Source of the DNA: Pseudomonadota bacterium
GTDB lineage: Bacteria > Pseudomonadota > Gammaproteobacteria > Steroidobacterales > Steroidobacteraceae
Direction of reading: 5' to 3'
Assembly: GCA_021851405.1 (NCBI GenBank)
Contig: JAJZDW010000013.1
Span: forward strand, 18,114-82,113
DNA: 64,000 bases
In this document: positions 19,552 to 63,760 of the stretch, in pieces
Layout: each line of letters opens with the position of its first letter
How positions within the stretch are numbered: the stretch's first letter is position 1
Position numbers and translations under genes: made by a program
Notes under the pieces: model-generated
What the model was told of the DNA's origin: nothing
Database searches by the model: none
What the model saw: only the letters and a program-made list of their open reading frames with translations

Positions 19552-20196
19552 TCATCGTGCGCGGCGCAGAGTGAGATTGATGCGCTGGCGTCCGAGGCGG
19601 GGATGTTGCCCATCGGCGACAGGCGCCACCCCGTGGAAGGCGAGGCGCGCCGGGCCGCCCCAGACCACGACGTCGCCGTGGGTCAGCGGCAGTCGCAGCG
19701 GCCGGTTTCGGCGTGTGTCGCCGCCAAAGAGGAAGACCGCCGGCAACCCCAGCGAGACCGACACGATGGGCGCATTGAAATCACGCTCGTCCCGATCCTG
19801 GTGCAGGGACATGCGAGCGCCGGGGGTGTAAGCATTGATGAGGCAGGCATCGGGCTCAAAGGACTCGAAGCCGGCGGCCCGTGCCGCCGCGACCGCTACT
19901 TCGCGCAGCGGCGCGGGCAGCGCGGGCCAGGGCTCCCCGCGCTGCGGATCCAGCGCGCTGTAGCGGTAACCGCACCGATCCGAGATCCAGCCGAGCGGGC
20001 CGCAATTGGTCATGGCGACGGACATCCGCTGGCCTCCCGGGGTCATCAGGTGTCGCAGTGGTGCTGCGGCGGTGACTCGGGTGATCGCCTCGAGCAGCGC
20101 ATCCTCCCAGGTGAGGGCAAAGCCTTCGAGCCAGGCGAGCCCCACAGGCAGGGGCCGCGGGGCGTCACTCGAGGTGAAGAGATCAGACTCCTGCAT
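19552..20196 (-). CDS. alkB: AlkB-like 2OG-Fe(II) dioxygenase
   Basis: LINAYTPGARMSLHQDRDERDFNAPIVSVSLGLPAVFLFGG...GDVVVWGGPARLAFHGV...RINLTLRR. Confidence 0.92.
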   Translation of the reverse strand: MQESDLFTSSDAPRPLPVGLAWLEGFALTWEDALLEAITRVTAAAPLRHLMTPGGQRMSVAMTNCGPLGWISDRCGYRYSALDPQRGEPWPALPAPLREVAVAAARAAGFESFEPDACLINAYTPGARMSLHQDRDERDFNAPIVSVSLGLPAVFLFGGDTRRNRPLRLPLTHGDVVVWGGPARLAFHGVAPVADGQHPRLGRQRINLTLRRAR

Positions 20197-21616
20197 CCTG
20201 GTGTGATCCGAGCTTCGGGTCTCGCCTCAAGCACAAAAATCCAGACACTCCCCGTGCGCGCATCGCCGCAGCGGTGCCGCCGTGCACGGCGGCCGGGGTC
20301 ATCAAGCCGATGCCGCTGTGGCGGTGTTCGTGGTTGTACCAGTGAAAGAACTGCTGGCAGTGCGCGCGGGCGTCCTCGATCGAGCCGAACCGCTCAGGGA
20401 AATCGGGACGGTATTTCAGGGTCTTGAACTGCGCCTCAGAGTACGGATTGTCATCTGAGACGTGTGGACGGCTGTGGGTCTTGGCGACCTCCAGATCGAT
20501 CAGCAGCGCCGCCACGGGCTTTGAACGCATGCTCGTGCCGCGATCGGCGTGCAGTGTGAGCGTCCCCGGTGCGATGTTCTGCTTCTGCAGAGTCTCGGCG
20601 ATGAACTGCTCGGCGAGTTCTGCCGATTCGCGCAGCGCGAGCATCCATCCGACGACGTAGCGGCTGAAGATGTCGAGGATGACGTACAAGTGGAAGTGGA
20701 CCCATCTGGCCGGACCCTTCAACTTTGTACTGTCCCAACTCCAGACTTCCCTGGGCCGCACCGCAAGCAGCTCGGGCTTGGCGTAGACGGGGTGCACGCG
20801 TTGATTGCGTCGCTCCCCGCCTTGGTTGCGGGCCGCCAGCAGCCGGTACATCGTGCGAATCGAGCCGTGATAACGGCCTTCGTCGAGCAATGTGGCATAG
20901 ACCGTGGGCGGGGCCACATCGGCGAAGCGCTCGCTATCGAGTACCCCGAGCAGCAGCTCCTGCTCGGAGTTCGAGAGGGCCAACGGGGGTCGCGACCTTG
21001 CACGCGATGCGCGCCGTGGGCCAATGGCCCGATGCCGGACTCGATCGCGATACACGAACCCACGGTTCAGCCCGAACGCCCGGCAGGCGGCTTTGAGCCC
21101 GACATGCGGGGCGAGATCGGCGACAGCGAGCATCATTCCTCTTCGCTCCTGTCGTCCGATGTCGGCAGACCCAGGGCCACACAGAGTTTTTTTTGGGCCT
21201 CGATGATCAGCTCCGCGCGCTCGAGCTTGCGCCGCAGGCGGGCGTTGTCGCGATTGAGCTGCTCGATCTGCCGGGCTGACGGGTCGGGCTTCGGTCCACG
21301 CTTTTTTGGGGGCTCGCGCCACCCGATCGGCCGCCTCGAGCTGCTTGCGCCAGCTCGAGAGCATCGAGGAATAAATGCGCTTGCTACGCAGGAACGCGCC
21401 CAGCGTGCCGGCCGCCTTGCATCGGTCGGCCTCGACCAGGAGCACGCGCTTCTCGCCGGCGGAAAACCTGCGCCGCCGAGCGACCGCCACGACCTCTGGG
21501 TCCGGCCGCGCCGCGGCCCCGGGCATCCCTTCACTCGCCCTTCGGGTTCCTTCCGGGATGCCCGGACTGAGAGTGGACCGATCGTGGCTCATCGAAAAAT
21601 CCAGTACTGCTGCCAT
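20183..21616 (-). mobile_element. IS3-family insertion sequence, orfA/orfB transposase with a disrupted orfA frame
   Basis: orfB MMLAVADLAPHVGLKAACRAFGLNRG...VWSWDSTKLKGPARWVHFHLYVILDIFSRYVVGWM...LHADRGTSM...SRPHVSDDNPYSEAQFKTLKYRPDFP. The orfA HTH is in the same long ORF; the rest of orfA (KKRGPKPDPSARQIEQLNRDNARLRRKLERAELIIEAQKK) is in another frame (track ORF 21133..21534). Confidence 0.9.
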
Positions 21617-21928
21617 GAGTGATACTACCTTGGACTGTAAATTCCAGAAGGCAGGTATTCCAGCTCACATTGGCACAGGGGGGAGACGCAGACCGCCAGT
21701 TCCCGTCCACCACCCCCGATGCTCCAATTCGATAGGCCGATTTTCGACTTGCCTCCCGACCTAAACGATTGCCAACCCTCTGCCGATCCAGCACCCGGAT
21801 CCCCCCGAGCTACAGCCCCAATTGGGCACCTAGACTCTTTGAGCGTATGGATGCATCATATTTATGCGCTGGCCAGTGGCCGGTGTCGCGTTGCGGACGG
21901 TTCCGCTGTTAGTAAGAGGTATGCTTTC

Positions 21929-22324
21929 ATGCCCACTCCCGCTAAAGGGGCGTCCGCTCCTTCCAAATCCGTCCCGGTTGAGTATCAGGAGATCCTCGTA
22001 AGGCGAGATGGGAACCGCCCCATCTCGTTCGCGGGCCAAACGCTTGCAAAGGTCTCGATGAGCGGAGGTGTCACGGGTTGGTCCATTACTGCGGCCCTAT
22101 ATAACACCCGTGGCGGCAAATTTGTCGCCGCCATCTCCAAGGCCAATTCCGTCATTGAGTTCAGCCAGGGAATCCAGGACCCCGAAACGGCACATGGCGG
22201 GGCATTCCACAAAGCCCAGGTCTTCGATACTTTCGATGAAGCAATCTCCTGGTTTCGCCCAGGCCGTCTGACTGACGCTCTTCGCAAACAGCTCGGGCTA
22301 GACGAGCCAGAACGCATCGAGTAA
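21929..22324 (+). CDS. Hypothetical protein, 131 aa, upstream partner of a RelA/SpoT-domain gene
   Basis: Start chosen at MPTPAKGASAPSK, preceded by an AGTAAGAGG SD-like sequence. The upstream part of track ORF 21719..22324 is not supported. Confidence 0.55.
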   Translation: MPTPAKGASAPSKSVPVEYQEILVRRDGNRPISFAGQTLAKVSMSGGVTGWSITAALYNTRGGKFVAAISKANSVIEFSQGIQDPETAHGGAFHKAQVFDTFDEAISWFRPGRLTDALRKQLGLDEPERIE

Positions 22325-22408
22325 TACTGGTGAGTAACCGAGATCCGGAGCGGAGGAGCCCGGGATGTCGGTCGGTTCTGGTCTCGAGTTATCCAACCCA
22401 GGAAAGCC

Positions 22409-23524
22409 ATGACATTTCCGAAGCCAGAATATTCGCGGGGTCAAGTAAACAGGGCCGGCGAGATTCTGCGCGCGTATGCCCAGTCGACCGAACCGGTCTC
22501 AATTGAACAGTTGGATGAATGGGACTGGGCCTATAAGGTCCTCGCCAACTGGCGCGCCTGCCACAACTACCCCATCAACACGTTCCAAGCGACTCTGAGA
22601 AGCAGGCTCAAGTCCATAGACAGCAATGCAACTGTTGCTCAGCGATTAAAGCGATTGCCGTCAATCGCACTTAAGCTAAAGAGATTTGATGGGATGCAGC
22701 TTGCCAGGATGCAGGATATCGGTGGACTTCGCGCAATCTTGGGCAGCATAAAACAGGTCCGGCGACTTGAACATGTGTACCGAGATCGAACATTTCAGCA
22801 TGAGCTGGTCTCTTGGAAAGACTACATTGCTGAGCCAAAAGATGATGGCTACAGAAGCATTCATCTCATATATCGGTATAGGAATTCGAAAGTGCAATCT
22901 TACGACGGACTGCTGCTGGAACTACAGCTTAGAACCAAGCTGCAGCATGCCTGGGCCACGGCTGTCGAGACCATGGGGACATTCCTGGGTCAAGCCCTGA
23001 AGTCTGGCCAAGGTGAGGGTCAGTGGCGGTCGTTCTTCGCAGTCACCGGGTCTGCACTTGCTCATCTTGAAGGCTCCCCACCGGTGCCTGGGCATGAGTC
23101 TTTGTCGCGGAGCGAGACATTTCTGCGAGTTGCAGAGACAGAAGCTCAATTAAACGTTCTTGAAAAGCTCCGAGGATTCTCAGTTGCCGCAGAAAAGATA
23201 ACAACCGAAAAGGGTCACGGCGTTTTTCACCTGGTTGTTTTAAATTCGGCCGACAAATCTGTATCCATTCGCCCGTATGCAATGACCCGACTCGAACAGG
23301 CGAATGCAGACTACGCTGATGTCGAGAAGCAAGCCCAAGCCGGGGAGCCTGTGGAGGCTGTATTGGTGTCGGCCGGCCCCGTGGAAGCCCTGAAGAGAGC
23401 GTATCCCAACTATTTTCTGGATACCAATGAGTTTGTTGCTCAGATTGATAGGGTAATCCAAGAAGCCAAACGCCCGCCGCTTAACAGGACCCTAAGTCGG
23501 CGAAAGGTAGTTGCCCCTAAGTAA
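22409..23524 (+). CDS. RelA/SpoT synthetase-domain protein
   Basis: LARMQDIGGLRAILG, WKDYIAEPKDDGYRSIHLIYRY, LLLELQLRTKLQHAWATAVETMG. SD-like AGGAAAG before ATG. No HD hydrolase, TGS or ACT domain seen. Confidence 0.85.
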   Translation: MTFPKPEYSRGQVNRAGEILRAYAQSTEPVSIEQLDEWDWAYKVLANWRACHNYPINTFQATLRSRLKSIDSNATVAQRLKRLPSIALKLKRFDGMQLARMQDIGGLRAILGSIKQVRRLEHVYRDRTFQHELVSWKDYIAEPKDDGYRSIHLIYRYRNSKVQSYDGLLLELQLRTKLQHAWATAVETMGTFLGQALKSGQGEGQWRSFFAVTGSALAHLEGSPPVPGHESLSRSETFLRVAETEAQLNVLEKLRGFSVAAEKITTEKGHGVFHLVVLNSADKSVSIRPYAMTRLEQANADYADVEKQAQAGEPVEAVLVSAGPVEALKRAYPNYFLDTNEFVAQIDRVIQEAKRPPLNRTLSRRKVVAPK

Positions 23525-23866
23525 CTACCGTGACTGGAAACGTCACGGTCTAAGGCGAACGGCTCGACAGAGATTACCCTGCTGCGCCACCAGGACTTCG
23601 TTGAAGCGATTCTGAAGTATCACAGTGGAAGTGTGAATGCGGAGCAGCTGGCTCGGTGGTACCTGATTCCCGGGTACTCACGCATCGAGCACCTAGATGC
23701 GCTCGCGATGGCGTCACCCGGGCAATAAGGTGCCATCCTCCAGCAGCCGCATGCTTGGGCACAAATGGGACATCAACTACCCATCATCATCGCCAGCCGA
23801 TCGGCATAAGACCTGATTCGCGGAGTTTGAGCGCCGTGACTGATACGTTTCCAATGGGAGTTCAAT

Positions 23867-24157
23867 TTGACACCAAAAGAGGAATGGGGCGCATCTCTTC
23901 TCGAGTTTGAGCAGGCTCATGAGCGAACTGTCTTCGAGGTTGCGGCATGGCGCGGCCTGCAGAGTTCCAGGAAGACGCTGAGTCAGAGCATGATTAGCCA
24001 CGGGATGGCGAGAAATGAGGCGCAGGGAGCATTCGATGGAATGATGGCCGATCACACAGAGAGATTCACTACGGCCCTGAAGGAGGAGAGCACGCGCTGG
24101 CAATCCTGTCTCAATCTGCTCCGCGCTTACCCTGATGTGCTGACATCGAACGATTGA
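23867..24157 (+). CDS. Hypothetical protein, 96 aa
   Basis: Open frame with non-GC-driven codon usage in the lower-GC island. No recognised family. Confidence 0.4.
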   Translation: MTPKEEWGASLLEFEQAHERTVFEVAAWRGLQSSRKTLSQSMISHGMARNEAQGAFDGMMADHTERFTTALKEESTRWQSCLNLLRAYPDVLTSND

Positions 24158-24159
24158 CG

Positions 24160-24504
24160 TCATCTCCTCAAGAGGGGCGTACTTGTAAACGTTGATTCCG
24201 ATCCTGTCTGCCGGCGCTCCTTCCATGCGCGTGGATGGCGGCTACCGTGCAATACCGCTACGACGATAATGGCATCCTCATCAATTTGGTAAAAGACGCC
24301 GAACGGGAAGCGCCTAATGAGAGCACGTCGGACCGATTTGTGAACCGCTGTTAACGCGCTGGGCTGTTCCGCAATCGTATTGATGGTGGCTTGCACCTGG
24401 TCAACGAATTGCACTCCGAGGCCAGGTTCGTTTGCCTCGTACCACAGAGCAGCCTCGGCCACGTCCTGTTCTGCTTCAGGCCGGAGACGGACCTCTACCG
24501 TCAC
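24160..24504 (-). CDS. RelE/ParE-family toxin
   Basis: VEVRLRPEAEQDVAEAALWYEANEPGLGVQFVDQVQATINTIAEQPS...VRRALIRRFPFGVFYQIDEDAIIVVAVLHGSRHPRAWKER. Confidence 0.88.
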   Translation of the reverse strand: MTVEVRLRPEAEQDVAEAALWYEANEPGLGVQFVDQVQATINTIAEQPSALTAVHKSVRRALIRRFPFGVFYQIDEDAIIVVAVLHGSRHPRAWKERRQTGSESTFTSTPLLRR

Positions 24505-24906: not shown

Positions 24907-25750
24907 TCAGCAAGATATTTCAAAGCGGCCCGGATGTCGGATGTGCCGCTCCCGCATCTTCATCCGCGCCGCCGGGACGCGCCATTCCGCTGCTTGCAGG
25001 TCGATCTCGCTCCATTCCGCAGCCCGAAGCTCGCTGGGACGTAGAAAGACGAGAGGGGACAACTTCAGGGCGATCAGCGTCGTCGGATGCCCTATGTAGT
25101 CATCGATGGCGCGGAGTAGGGCGCCGATCTTCGCCGGCTCCGTGATCGCCGCCCGGTTCTCCACCACGACCGGCGCCAAGGCGCCCCGCAGGTCGGACGT
25201 GATGTCCCGCGTCGCTCGACCCGTCGCGATGGCGTACCGGAATATCTGCCCGCAGCGCTGCAGGGCCCGATGCGCCGTCTCGTTCATCCCACGGCTCTCG
25301 ATTGGGCGCAGCACGCCCAGCACCTCAGGTGCCGTGATCTCGGCGATCGGCCGCGACCCCAGGCGAGGGTAAACGAACGAGCCCAAAATCCACCGCGCCT
25401 GGGTCATCGTGATGGGTGCCAGCCGTTCCGCCTGCATCTCCAGCCATTCCTCGGCAATCACCTTGAAGGTGTCCGCCCTGGCGACCTTGACCGTCCGCCG
25501 CTGCGCGCTCGGGTCGATCCCCCGAGCCAGCAGCTGCCGGGCCTCCTGCAGCTTCTCCCGCGCGTACTGCAGGGTCACATCCGGGTACACGCCGAGAGAA
25601 ATCCCGCGGCTCCCTGCCGTCATATTTGTACTTGAACCGCCACCACCGCGACCCGTTCGCGTTCACCACCATATACCGCCCGCGCTCGTCATAGACCTTG
25701 TATGCCTTCTACTTAGATCTCAGGCTCCGAATCTTCGCATCCGACAACAT
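24907..25750 (-). pseudogene. P4-type tyrosine integrase, decayed (in-frame TAG, frameshift, missing C-terminus)
   Basis: The complement from 25750 reads MLSDAKIRSLRSK-stop-KAYKVYDERGRYMVVNANGSRWWRFKYKYDG, then after a frame change RGISLGVYPDVTLQYAREKLQEARQLLARGIDP...FLRPSELRAAEWSEIDL. It ends before the catalytic His/Arg/Tyr region. Confidence 0.85.
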
Positions 25751-25959: not shown

Positions 25960-26311
25960 TGGTGCCCGGGGCCGGACTCGAACCGGCATGGAGTTGCCCC
26001 CGAGGGATTTTCATACCCACTACGGTTTACACCGCTGCGTTCGCCCGGCGAGTTCGCCGGCCACGACGCATTTGGGGTCTGGACTTTACCTTCACCGTGC
26101 CGCGACACGATCACGCCTCGCGGTTTAGGCAGGGGCCGTCAAGTCTCTACACTTTCCGGGCAGCCCCGCGGCCGCTCGGCTTAGCTCGGTATTGCAGCCA
26201 CCGTGACGTGCTGCTGGTCCACCGACTTTGACCCCATTCACACCGGGCGTTTCCGCCCCGGGTGCTCAACTTCGTTAAGTCCCTTGCGTCTACCAATTTC
26301 GCCACCCGGGC
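25960..26311 (-). tRNA. tRNA-Leu(UAA), interrupted by a group I intron
   Basis: Exon 1 (26311-26277) is GCCCGGGTGGCGAAATTGGTAGACGCAAGGGACTT. Exon 2 (26011-25960) is AAAATCCCTCGGGGGCAACTCCATGCCGGTTCGAGTCCGGCCCCGGGCACCA. Joined, they give a perfect 7-bp acceptor stem, anticodon stem AGGGA/TCCCT with loop CTTAAAA (anticodon TAA), and T arm GCCGG-TTCGAGT-CCGGC with encoded CCA. Confidence 0.95.
26012..26276 (-). ncRNA. Group I intron (265 nt) in the tRNA-Leu(UAA) anticodon
   Basis: Inserted after U34. The intron ends in G. It contains group I core-like segments CTGCAATACCGAGCTAAGCC, GTGTAGAGACTTGACGGCCC and GGTAAAGTCCAGACCCCAAA, matching the layout of cyanobacterial tRNA-Leu introns. Confidence 0.92.
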
Positions 26312-26479
26312 AAGGGAGGCCGGCGCATTCTACCCGAGGCCCGAGCGTCCCTGGCACCGTTGCGTGCTCGAGGCAATAAGGAGCCCTACCTATGCTCGGT
26401 TGCGCAGTGCCTATGGAGATAAATGTCCGAATTGGCGAGACTTGCCGCCCATCGAGGCTGTGATGGGCCGATGAGAGGC

Positions 26480-27109
26480 ATGTCCGAGACGACGCTCAAA
26501 GGGGAAAATGTGCATCTGTGGCGCGGCGAGCGGCACGTGCTGCGCGGCGTCGCCTTCACGGTCTCCGGTGGGGAGTGCCTGCAGCTGACCGGGCCGAACG
26601 GGGCCGGCAAGACGAGCCTGCTGCGCACCGTGTGCGGCATGGCCTACCCGGAGGCCGGACGGATCTGCTGGCGGGGCACGGACGTGCGCGAGGACCTGCC
26701 GAGCTTTCACGCCGAAATGGCCTATCTCGGCCATGAGCCGCCCCTGAAGATGGAGCTCACGGGCCGCGAGAACCTGCACTACTGGGTCGCCGTGCGCCGG
26801 CGGTTCGCCGCCGCGGAACTCGAGGCCGTGCTCGGGCGGGTCGGCGCAGGACGCTGGGCCGACCGACCGGTGCGCACGCTCTCGGCCGGTCAGAAGCGGC
26901 GGGTGGCCCTCGCGGGGCTCCTGCTGATGGCGGTGCCGCTCTGGCTCCTCGATGAACCCACCACGAATCTCGATGTCGAAGGGCAGCACCTCGTGGGCGC
27001 CCTGATCGACGAGCATCTCGCCGCCGGCGGGCTGGTCATGGCGGCCGTACATCATCCGCTCGCGGTCTCGGAGCGGGGACTGCGGCGATTGGAGCTGGGC
27101 GGTGTCTGA
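26480..27109 (+). CDS. ccmA: Cytochrome c biogenesis ATP-binding protein CcmA
   Basis: Walker A GPNGAGKTSLLRTVCGM; RTLSAGQKRRVALAGLLL; LLDEPTTNLD. Start taken at MSETTLKGENV; the track ORF starts at 26423. Confidence 0.9.
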   Translation: MSETTLKGENVHLWRGERHVLRGVAFTVSGGECLQLTGPNGAGKTSLLRTVCGMAYPEAGRICWRGTDVREDLPSFHAEMAYLGHEPPLKMELTGRENLHYWVAVRRRFAAAELEAVLGRVGAGRWADRPVRTLSAGQKRRVALAGLLLMAVPLWLLDEPTTNLDVEGQHLVGALIDEHLAAGGLVMAAVHHPLAVSERGLRRLELGGV

Positions 27110-35315: not shown

Positions 35316-35349
35316 CCGGTAGGCGGCACCGTACTATCGTCGCTCGCGT

Positions 35350-37317
<1,968 letters not shown>

Positions 37318-61933: not shown

Positions 61934-62206
61934 ATGAAAGAGTCTCACATCGAAGGAGTAGCGATCCACGATGACCCCGAGTCATGCGCGAGCAGTCGCG
62001 AGGCTGCACGTGAAGTGTTGACAGGGGCACACACAGGTTCGGTATTGAGCCGCGAAATCAGGTTCTCCAGGGTGCCGACGCTGTTAAGCGAAGCGGAAGG
62101 CAAAATGTCTCAGGGGCGCTATCGCAAGTCTCTGGGTGGCCCTGCGCGGTCGCAGACCCGATACATGTGTGGAACCTTCTTGCGCGAGAACCGGGAGATC
62201 CCATAG
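61934..62206 (+). CDS. Small ORF preceding the intron-encoded RT (may be intron RNA rather than a protein gene)
   Basis: MKESHIEGVAIHDDPESCASSREAAREVLTGAHTGSVLSREIRFSR...; its stop abuts the RT ATG. Confidence 0.35.
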   Translation: MKESHIEGVAIHDDPESCASSREAAREVLTGAHTGSVLSREIRFSRVPTLLSEAEGKMSQGRYRKSLGGPARSQTRYMCGTFLRENREIP

Positions 62207-63760
62207 ATGTCTGTTGCAGGTGGTGCAGCAGACCGCTCCGGAAAGGCTAATCGCCGCACCCCGGGGATGCACGTCGATGGGAAGTCGGACGGGTCCGTAA
62301 TACCTGCGAAGCAGCCGAACAATATCGACGGACTGGTGGCGGAGGCTGTCGAGGGAAGGGACCCGATCAAGGGGAACACGGGCAAGCAAAACGCGTCCCG
62401 GACTCAGAGCCGGATCGATGCGCACAGTGCGCTTGAACGTGTACGCAAAGCTGCAAAGGCGGATAAGAAAAGACGGTTCACGGCGCTCCTGCACCACGTG
62501 AGCGTCGATCGGTTGCGTGAGGCGTACTTGGCTTCGAAGAAGCACGCCGCAGCGGGAGTCGATGGCGTCTCGTGGCAGTACTATGGCGAGCAGCTCGAAG
62601 AAAATCTTCGGGATCTACACGCCAGGGTGCATCGCGGAGCGTATCGGGCGAAGCCCTCGCGTAGAGTGTACATCCCGAAACCGGATGGCCGGCAACGGCC
62701 CCTGGGCATTGTGGCACTGGAGGACAAAATCCTGCAGCGAGCTGTGGTGTCGGTGATGAATGCAATCTATGAAAGCGATTTTCTCGGCTTCTCATACGGC
62801 TTTCGACCAGGACGTGGGGCACATGATGCGCTCGACGCGTTGGCGGTCGGAATCACCGGCAAGAAGGTGAACTGGGTGCTCGATGCCGATATCCGTGGTT
62901 TCTTCGATACCATCGACCACGGGTGGCTGATCAAGTTCATCGAGCATCGAATTGCGGATCGTAGGGTCCTGCGACTCATCCAGAAGTGGTTGAGAGCGGG
63001 AGTCATGGAACAGGGAAAACGTACGCCGACGGAGGTTGGCTCCCCGCAAGGGGCAACGGCGTCGCCGTTGCTGGCCAACATTTGTCTGCATTATGCGCTT
63101 GACCTGTGGGTGCAGCAATGGAGGCAGCGGTACGGGCGCGGTGATATCATCATCGTCCGCTACTGCGATGACTTCGTGCTCGGCTTCCAGCATGACTTCG
63201 ATGCACAGCGGTTCCTTCGAGCCCTCCGCGAACGACTCGCGCGGTTCAATCTGGAGCTGCATCCCGAGAAGACCCGGCTCATTGCCTTCGGGAGGTTTGC
63301 TGCCTCCCGCCGCCAAGAGCAGGGACAATCAGGTGCACCGCAGCCCTTCAACTTCCTTGGGTTGACGCACTGTTGTGGTCGCTCGAGGACTGGGAAGTTC
63401 AGGTTACAGCGTCACACGATGACTGCGCGTTTGAGGGCGAAAGTACAAGAGATTGCTCTGGAGCTTCGCCGTCGTCGGCATGACTCGATCGCGTCGCAAG
63501 GTGAGTGGCTGGGAGCTGTCCTGCGCGGACACTACGCGTATTACGGCGTGCCGACCAACATCGCGGCGCTCGCTGTCTTCCGCCGGGAGATCACGCAGCG
63601 CTGGCGGCGGTCGCTCCTACGCCGCAGCCAGCGCCGGCGGCTCGACTGGGCGCGCATGAATCGCCTCGTTGATCGATGGCTTCCCACGGCCCGCATTATC
63701 CAACCCTGGCCGCAAGCGCGCTTTGCTGTTCGAACCCGAGATAAGAGCCCAGTGCGGTAG
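62207..63760 (+). CDS. ltrA: Group II intron reverse transcriptase/maturase (LtrA-like)
   Basis: RT motifs RRVYIPKPDGRQRPLGIVALEDKILQRAV, SYGFRPGRGAHDAL, VLDADIRGFFDTIDH, GSPQGATASPLLANI, IIIVRYCDDFVLGF; maturase X region at the C-terminus. Confidence 0.95.
   Translation: MSVAGGAADRSGKANRRTPGMHVDGKSDGSVIPAKQPNNIDGLVAEAVEGRDPIKGNTGKQNASRTQSRIDAHSALERVRKAAKADKKRRFTALLHHVSVDRLREAYLASKKHAAAGVDGVSWQYYGEQLEENLRDLHARVHRGAYRAKPSRRVYIPKPDGRQRPLGIVALEDKILQRAVVSVMNAIYESDFLGFSYGFRPGRGAHDALDALAVGITGKKVNWVLDADIRGFFDTIDHGWLIKFIEHRIADRRVLRLIQKWLRAGVMEQGKRTPTEVGSPQGATASPLLANICLHYALDLWVQQWRQRYGRGDIIIVRYCDDFVLGFQHDFDAQRFLRALRERLARFNLELHPEKTRLIAFGRFAASRRQEQGQSGAPQPFNFLGLTHCCGRSRTGKFRLQRHTMTARLRAKVQEIALELRRRRHDSIASQGEWLGAVLRGHYAYYGVPTNIAALAVFRREITQRWRRSLLRRSQRRRLDWARMNRLVDRWLPTARIIQPWPQARFAVRTRDKSPVR

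Follow-up and report, generated by a model that had tools for sequence, protein, structure and literature searches.

A group I intron in the only tRNA-Leu(UAA) gene found in a gammaproteobacterial genome, and longer relatives with an antisense HNH gene

Group I introns of the IC3 type interrupt the tRNA-Leu(UAA) genes of cyanobacteria and plastids, and those of the Azoarcus type interrupt tRNA-Ile(CAU) genes in betaproteobacteria; the structure of the Azoarcus intron is not known to contain P9.1 or P9.2. From a deep-subsurface gammaproteobacterium, a group I intron in tRNA-Leu(UAA) was reportedly described by Vepritskiy et al. in J Bacteriol in 2002. Elsewhere, tRNA group I introns are listed solely for cyanobacteria, alpha- and betaproteobacteria (PMC4033280), and PMC4853749, citing MacGregor et al. 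(2013), records interrupted tRNA-Leu(UAA) genes in the Beggiatoaceae Candidatus Maribeggiatoa and Thiomargarita nelsonii. In nuclear rDNA introns, endonuclease genes have been described in antisense orientation (PMC9548176). We consider it almost certain that the locus analyzed here is a functional tRNA-Leu(UAA) gene and the only one in its genome, that it carries an ORF-less IC3 intron most likely removed by ribozyme splicing, and that this intron belongs to an old family whose long members probably are, or once were, mobile.

Within the window (the whole stretch of 64,000 nucleotides that was analyzed), ARAGORN with introns permitted placed a tRNA-Leu(taa) gene on complement(25960..26311), split by an intron of 265 nt and reported as 'gactt-Intron-aaaat'. 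Read on the minus strand, with slashes at the splice junctions, the gene runs GCCCGGGUGGCGAAAUUGGUAGACGCAAGGGACUU / AACGAAGUUGAG ... GGGUAUG / AAAAUCCCUCGGGGG...CCCCGGGCACCA (Table 1). The insertion lies between nucleotides 34 and 35, the site of the tRNA-Leu(UAA) IC3 introns, and the 3' junction reads GGGUAUG/AAAAUCC, with a terminal intron G that is invariant in an alignment of 45 tRNA-Leu(UAA) introns. An earlier reading of the letters alone (the sequence-only reading) had arrived at identical coordinates, U34 join, length and terminal G, and its description of the acceptor, anticodon and T stems, of the order of the core elements and of an intron without an ORF agrees with what we found. 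Its assignment of a group I intron at U34/A35 of tRNA-Leu(UAA) in what is a gammaproteobacterium is borne out by ARAGORN, covariation and a covariance model.

The gene is readily overlooked, as had been anticipated: ARAGORN at default settings, without introns, reports zero tRNAs in the window. Rfam model RF00028, proposed earlier as a check, gave no match on the window, on the whole genome, or, even with the threshold relaxed to E ≤ 10, on the gene by itself, and following that outcome would have meant wrongly discarding the intron. The same model matches the tRNA-Leu introns of three relatives (L101, L097, and L131) at 54–59 bits, the first of which shows 71% identity to the gene in the window across its length. 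A specific covariance model of the intron 3' half, built from 22 introns that all lie outside the genus, detects the window intron with 96.4 bits (E 1.5e-21) as its sole match in the 64 kb. Because relatives pass RF00028 and the specific model finds the window intron, the miss reflects a limit of the general model. Rfam matches to LOOT and RNase P were weak, far under the cut-offs, and were dismissed.

A group I structure was drawn by hand from the window sequence and then scored on the alignment of 45 intron-bearing tRNA-Leu(UAA) genes, all interrupted at the same site and taken from the genus and other gammaproteobacteria (a few rows are bins otherwise named). Over 62 pairs, 96.1% of 2774 cells are standard pairs. 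Sliding the partners by 1–3 columns left 27–42% of cells paired versus 96% in register, a control that is somewhat favorable since the structure was taken from the window sequence. Less affected by this are the changes on both sides of a pair, which occur in 38 of the 62 pairs versus 20.0 ± 1.8 in shuffles. The P3/P7 pseudoknot is present with P4, P6, and P8 in canonical group I order, and all helices are supported across the 45 sequences; one P3 pair shows double changes in 15 of them. P7 consists of GACUU with AAGUC plus a G-C pair past a bulged A, and is paired in all 45 sequences; by analogy with other group I introns, the guanosine site would be the pair G26145-C26082.

At the 5' splice site, U opposite G is the standard pair of group I introns. 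The sequence-only reading had placed P1 in exon GACTT and intron AAGTT around AACG, a register that we rejected as shifted: the comparison favors CUU/AAC-GAA-GUUGAG, in which the pairing of CUU with GAG is invariant (45/45), as is the U.G at the splice site (45/45). In our reading, one and the same UU of the guide is able to pair with the AA at the start of the intron and also with the AA at the start of the 3' exon, which would let P10 take over from P1 at the second step.

Table 1. Coordinates and supporting observations for the interrupted gene, its intron helices, flanking genes and related loci (window positions unless a locus handle is given).
Feature	Position	Strand	Observations
5' exon of tRNA-Leu(UAA)	26277..26311	-	35 nt; ends ...GGGACUU (U34)
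Group I (IC3-type) intron	26012..26276	-	265 nt; AACGAAGUUGAG...GGGUAUG, terminal G; ARAGORN, covariation, specific covariance model
3' exon of tRNA-Leu(UAA)	25960..26011	-	AAAAUCCC...CCA; CCA encoded
P1, exon CUU + intron AAC with GUUGAG, GAA loop	26265..26279	-	U34.G at 5' splice site
P2, GAAA tetraloop	26239..26264	-	double changes in 6/7 outer pairs
P3 5' strand, GGGGUC	26230..26235	-	helix 4; all cells paired (100%); double changes in 3 pairs
P3 3' strand, GGCCCC	26132..26137	-	covariation, 45 sequences
P4 enclosing P5	26186..26225	-	P4 99.6% paired; U-A to G-C covariation
P6 hairpin	26156..26179	-	covariation; site of the antisense HNH gene in longer relatives
P7 5' strand, G-A(bulge)-GACUU	26141..26147	-	helix 9; 100% paired
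P7 3' strand, AAGUCC	26081..26086	-	covariation
P8	26093..26131	-	double changes in 6/8 pairs
P9 enclosing P9.1 and P9.2 (GUAA loop)	26015..26078	-	covariation
ccmA-like ABC ATPase, then ccmB	26423..27109	+	conserved neighbor marking the orthologous locus
Tyrosine integrase frame	24907..25623	-	immediately 3' of the tRNA; matches to the arm-binding and central domains but not to the catalytic one
tRNA-Leu(CAA) with 232-nt group I intron after C34	L274:1349-1667 = G000:C7:21691-22009		outside the window
Introns of relatives with antisense 154-aa frame	L072:2308-2772, L122:1461-1925, L094, L085, L065, L107, L121, L216, L219, L181

Among 58 members of the genus (the source genome included), 31 carry the intron, or a part of it at a contig end, and in 13 the tRNA-Leu(UAA) gene is uninterrupted; the remaining genomes, many of them incomplete, are undecided. 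The ccmA gene adjoins tRNA-Leu(UAA) in all 13 uninterrupted and most interrupted cases, and owing to this common neighbor the two forms are alleles of one locus. Placed on the ccmA tree, intron presence requires six changes, at least three of which are forced by well-supported branches, and divergence of the intron correlates with that of ccmA (Mantel r 0.57, 0 of 2000 permutations). An old intron that was for the most part inherited, and was repeatedly lost or gained in the genus, would account for this pattern.

A recent horizontal acquisition of the intron by the genus from cyanobacteria would be in keeping with the common U34/A35 site and the same P9-P9.1-P9.2 plan, but trees built from 96–99 intron cores group the window intron with members of its family and with other gammaproteobacteria (100/97 support), and set the cyanobacterial introns apart on a long branch of their own. 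In AU tests, neither a clade of the gammaproteobacterial Leu introns alone (p-AU 0.17) nor one joined by the cyanobacterial introns (p-AU 0.26) was rejected; common descent with the cyanobacterial and plastid introns is neither supported nor rejected by these trees and tests. As the intron also tracks host divergence, we regard such a transfer as very unlikely. We rather favor an old gammaproteobacterial tRNA-Leu family that includes the window intron, has mostly been passed on together with its host locus and was gained or lost several times within the genus.

The family is also more widespread than the supposed rarity of such introns in proteobacteria would suggest. A signature of the U34 class was found in 22 of the 370 gammaproteobacterial genomes that were sampled (approximately 6%; 22 of 273 genera), and ARAGORN confirmed an interrupted Leu(UAA) gene in 21 of these 22; cases in Beggiatoaceae had moreover been published (PMC4853749). 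The window intron is thus a further case of a known kind, commoner than the sequence-only reading supposed. A sample across the Pseudomonadota contained no true case outside Gammaproteobacteria, where the signature matches proved not to be interrupted tRNA-Leu genes. A core-motif scan of a public genome set places the wider intron family, among the matches listed, in tRNA-Leu(UAA), tRNA-Ile/Met(CAU), Leu(CAA), Ser, Arg, and other tRNA genes. Four further tRNA-Leu(UAA) genes (L076, L112, L130, and L136) contain a group I intron of another class, inserted after U33 rather than U34.

By established decoding rules, UUA codons cannot be read by other leucine tRNAs, so the interrupted gene must be spliced to serve them. 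The tRNA inventory of the genome comprises Leu CAG, GAG, and UAG, with UAA solely as the interrupted gene, and the uninterrupted anticodon arm GACTTAAAATC is absent from the genome in a whole-genome search; the second intact copy that might have marked this one as dead was not found by either route in the 97.4% complete draft. As the sole tRNA-Leu(UAA) gene found in the assembly, it is very probably functional, to judge from the genome sequence. A gene that is dead or does not splice, with tRNA-Leu(UAA) supplied by another gene, is compatible with the failure of RF00028 on this intron and with an assembly that is a draft of 76 contigs, in a gap of which a second copy could sit. Against this stand not only the inventory but also the perfect exons, a core invariant in 45 species together with many compensatory changes, and the interrupted and uninterrupted alleles at the same locus in the genus, and we judge it highly improbable.

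The preferred course of events is that of a functional, spliced gene. The transcript would most likely fold into P1–P9.2 and bind guanosine in P7. Once the RNA is cleaved behind U34, where P1 has its U.G pair, ligation of the exons would release the intron with its terminal G and yield a tRNA whose anticodon loop reads CUUAAAA. Splicing may proceed with or without the help of a protein. Protein-based removal of the kind known in archaea and eukaryotes, by a host endonuclease and ligase instead of group I chemistry, has next to no likelihood, as nothing was found in its favor and it is opposed by the complete group I core with its P3/P7 pseudoknot, terminal G, U.G site and compensatory evolution, and by an insertion that is not at 37/38, the canonical site of enzymatically spliced tRNA introns (PMC4033280).

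The specific covariance model gave a further match in the same genome (G000:C7:21843-21957), which lies within a tRNA-Leu(CAA) gene that is itself interrupted (Table 1). The borders of this second intron read GGACUC/AGAC...GAUG/AAAAUCC, and it is found in 34 of the 58 genus members and, among the relatives searched, in this genus alone. Its guide is GAG in all 30 genus members examined; the splice-site pair would therefore be C34-G and not U.G, which would make this intron an exception, found in nature, to the rule of a U.G pair at the splice site. With introns in both tRNA-Leu(UAA) and tRNA-Leu(CAA), both UUR-leucine tRNAs of this genome are interrupted. The idea that the CAA intron arose by copying of the UAA intron was considered and rejected: the CAA introns form a clade of their own, separate from the UAA introns, and a clade joining the two comes close to rejection (p-AU 0.059).

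Ten distinct tRNA-Leu introns of 682–703 nt contain a reading frame of 154 amino acids on the strand opposite to the tRNA (Table 1), inserted in P6 between the positions that match about 101 and 122 of the window intron. Two further copies occur in L091 and in a contig-end fragment (L089). The frame shows 0.30, 0.19, and 0.60 differences at the three codon positions, and 0.23 non-synonymous versus 0.82 synonymous changes per site, the latter saturated; by this codon pattern it is conserved as a protein, under purifying selection. The C-terminal end of the protein, PLELDHINGNNKDNRLENLRLLCPNCHALTPTY, contains an HNH motif with Cys pairs. Pfam matches to HNH families are borderline, and relatives of the protein occur in 195 phage records, several of them annotated as HNH endonuclease; no plasmid relatives were found. 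We infer that the protein is a homing endonuclease, and the longer introns probably are, or were, mobile by homing.

Within the genus of the window organism, one intron (L181, genome G005) has the HNH frame with a single in-frame stop, and another of 475 nt (L134) holds a decayed remnant; in introns of 275–358 nt no remnants were found. The window intron contains no HNH gene, and none was found in the source genome, in a genome search run without a positive control. The same HNH protein is also encoded outside an intron at L176:353-814, on the strand opposite to a tRNA-Leu(UAA) gene whose intron is compact and which ends approximately 50 bases upstream. A literature search returned no bacterial tRNA intron with an antisense endonuclease gene, which is not proof of absence; to our knowledge, this arrangement within an intron is otherwise familiar only from eukaryotic rDNA introns.

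The tRNA gene is flanked on its 3' side by a truncated integrase gene (Table 1), a probable remnant of an island inserted at tRNA-Leu(UAA). Many members of the genus, intron-bearing or not, have comparable integrases next to this tRNA, and the tRNA gene therefore looks like an island attachment site. Next to the integrase, the region 20183–24504 encodes a transposase (rve integrase core), a RelA/SpoT-domain protein and a ParE-like toxin, a content consistent with a mobile island. Elsewhere in the window we observed a group II intron RNA at 61939–62159 (RF02005, 179 bits), within 61939–63760, followed by a frame of 517 amino acids (62207–63760) resembling a group II reverse transcriptase, and a TPP riboswitch at 35344–35465 (67.7 bits), which immediately precedes a thiC-like gene (35479–37317).

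Taken together, these observations allow a broader proposal, which we put forward tentatively and would not yet back at even odds. The gammaproteobacterial tRNA-Leu(UAA) introns may constitute a homing lineage that spread through a phage-type HNH gene carried antisense in P6, with the window intron as an ORF-less member kept for an essential tRNA; both UUR tRNAs of the genus would then depend on ribozymes, that of CAA splicing at a Watson-Crick C-G pair. Independently of this proposal, introns in tRNA-Leu are a regular, under-annotated feature of gammaproteobacteria, and because they escape the general Rfam model as well as tRNA finders at default settings, the genomes concerned seem to be without an essential tRNA. 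The antisense HNH gene of the relatives offers a hint at how such introns spread. As alleles with the intron, without it, and with the antisense HNH gene (one of them broken) exist at one locus of the genus, the life cycle of such an intron becomes testable in bacteria.

Among known systems, the tRNA-Leu(UAA) IC3 introns of cyanobacteria and plastids resemble the window intron in their position after U34, in a P1 of CUU with GAG and in the P7-P3 core, and those of cyanobacteria also, by our reading of the structures, in a P9 with P9.1 and P9.2; they differ in forming a separate sequence clade. The Azoarcus-type tRNA-Ile(CAU) IC3 introns have the core motif GUGUAGAGACU-ACGGC-CC-CCUAA in common with the window intron, among the matches listed, but occupy another host tRNA and site and form their own clade. 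The introns of the Beggiatoaceae interrupt the same gene in the same class and were likewise missed by annotation; they belong to another lineage, and by the account in PMC4853749 neither the type nor the structure of these tRNA introns had been determined. Nuclear rDNA group I introns, like the long tRNA-Leu relatives, carry an endonuclease gene opposite to the ribozyme strand, but these are eukaryotic rDNA introns with His-Cys endonucleases, whereas the long relatives lie in bacterial tRNA genes and encode an HNH protein (PMC9548176).
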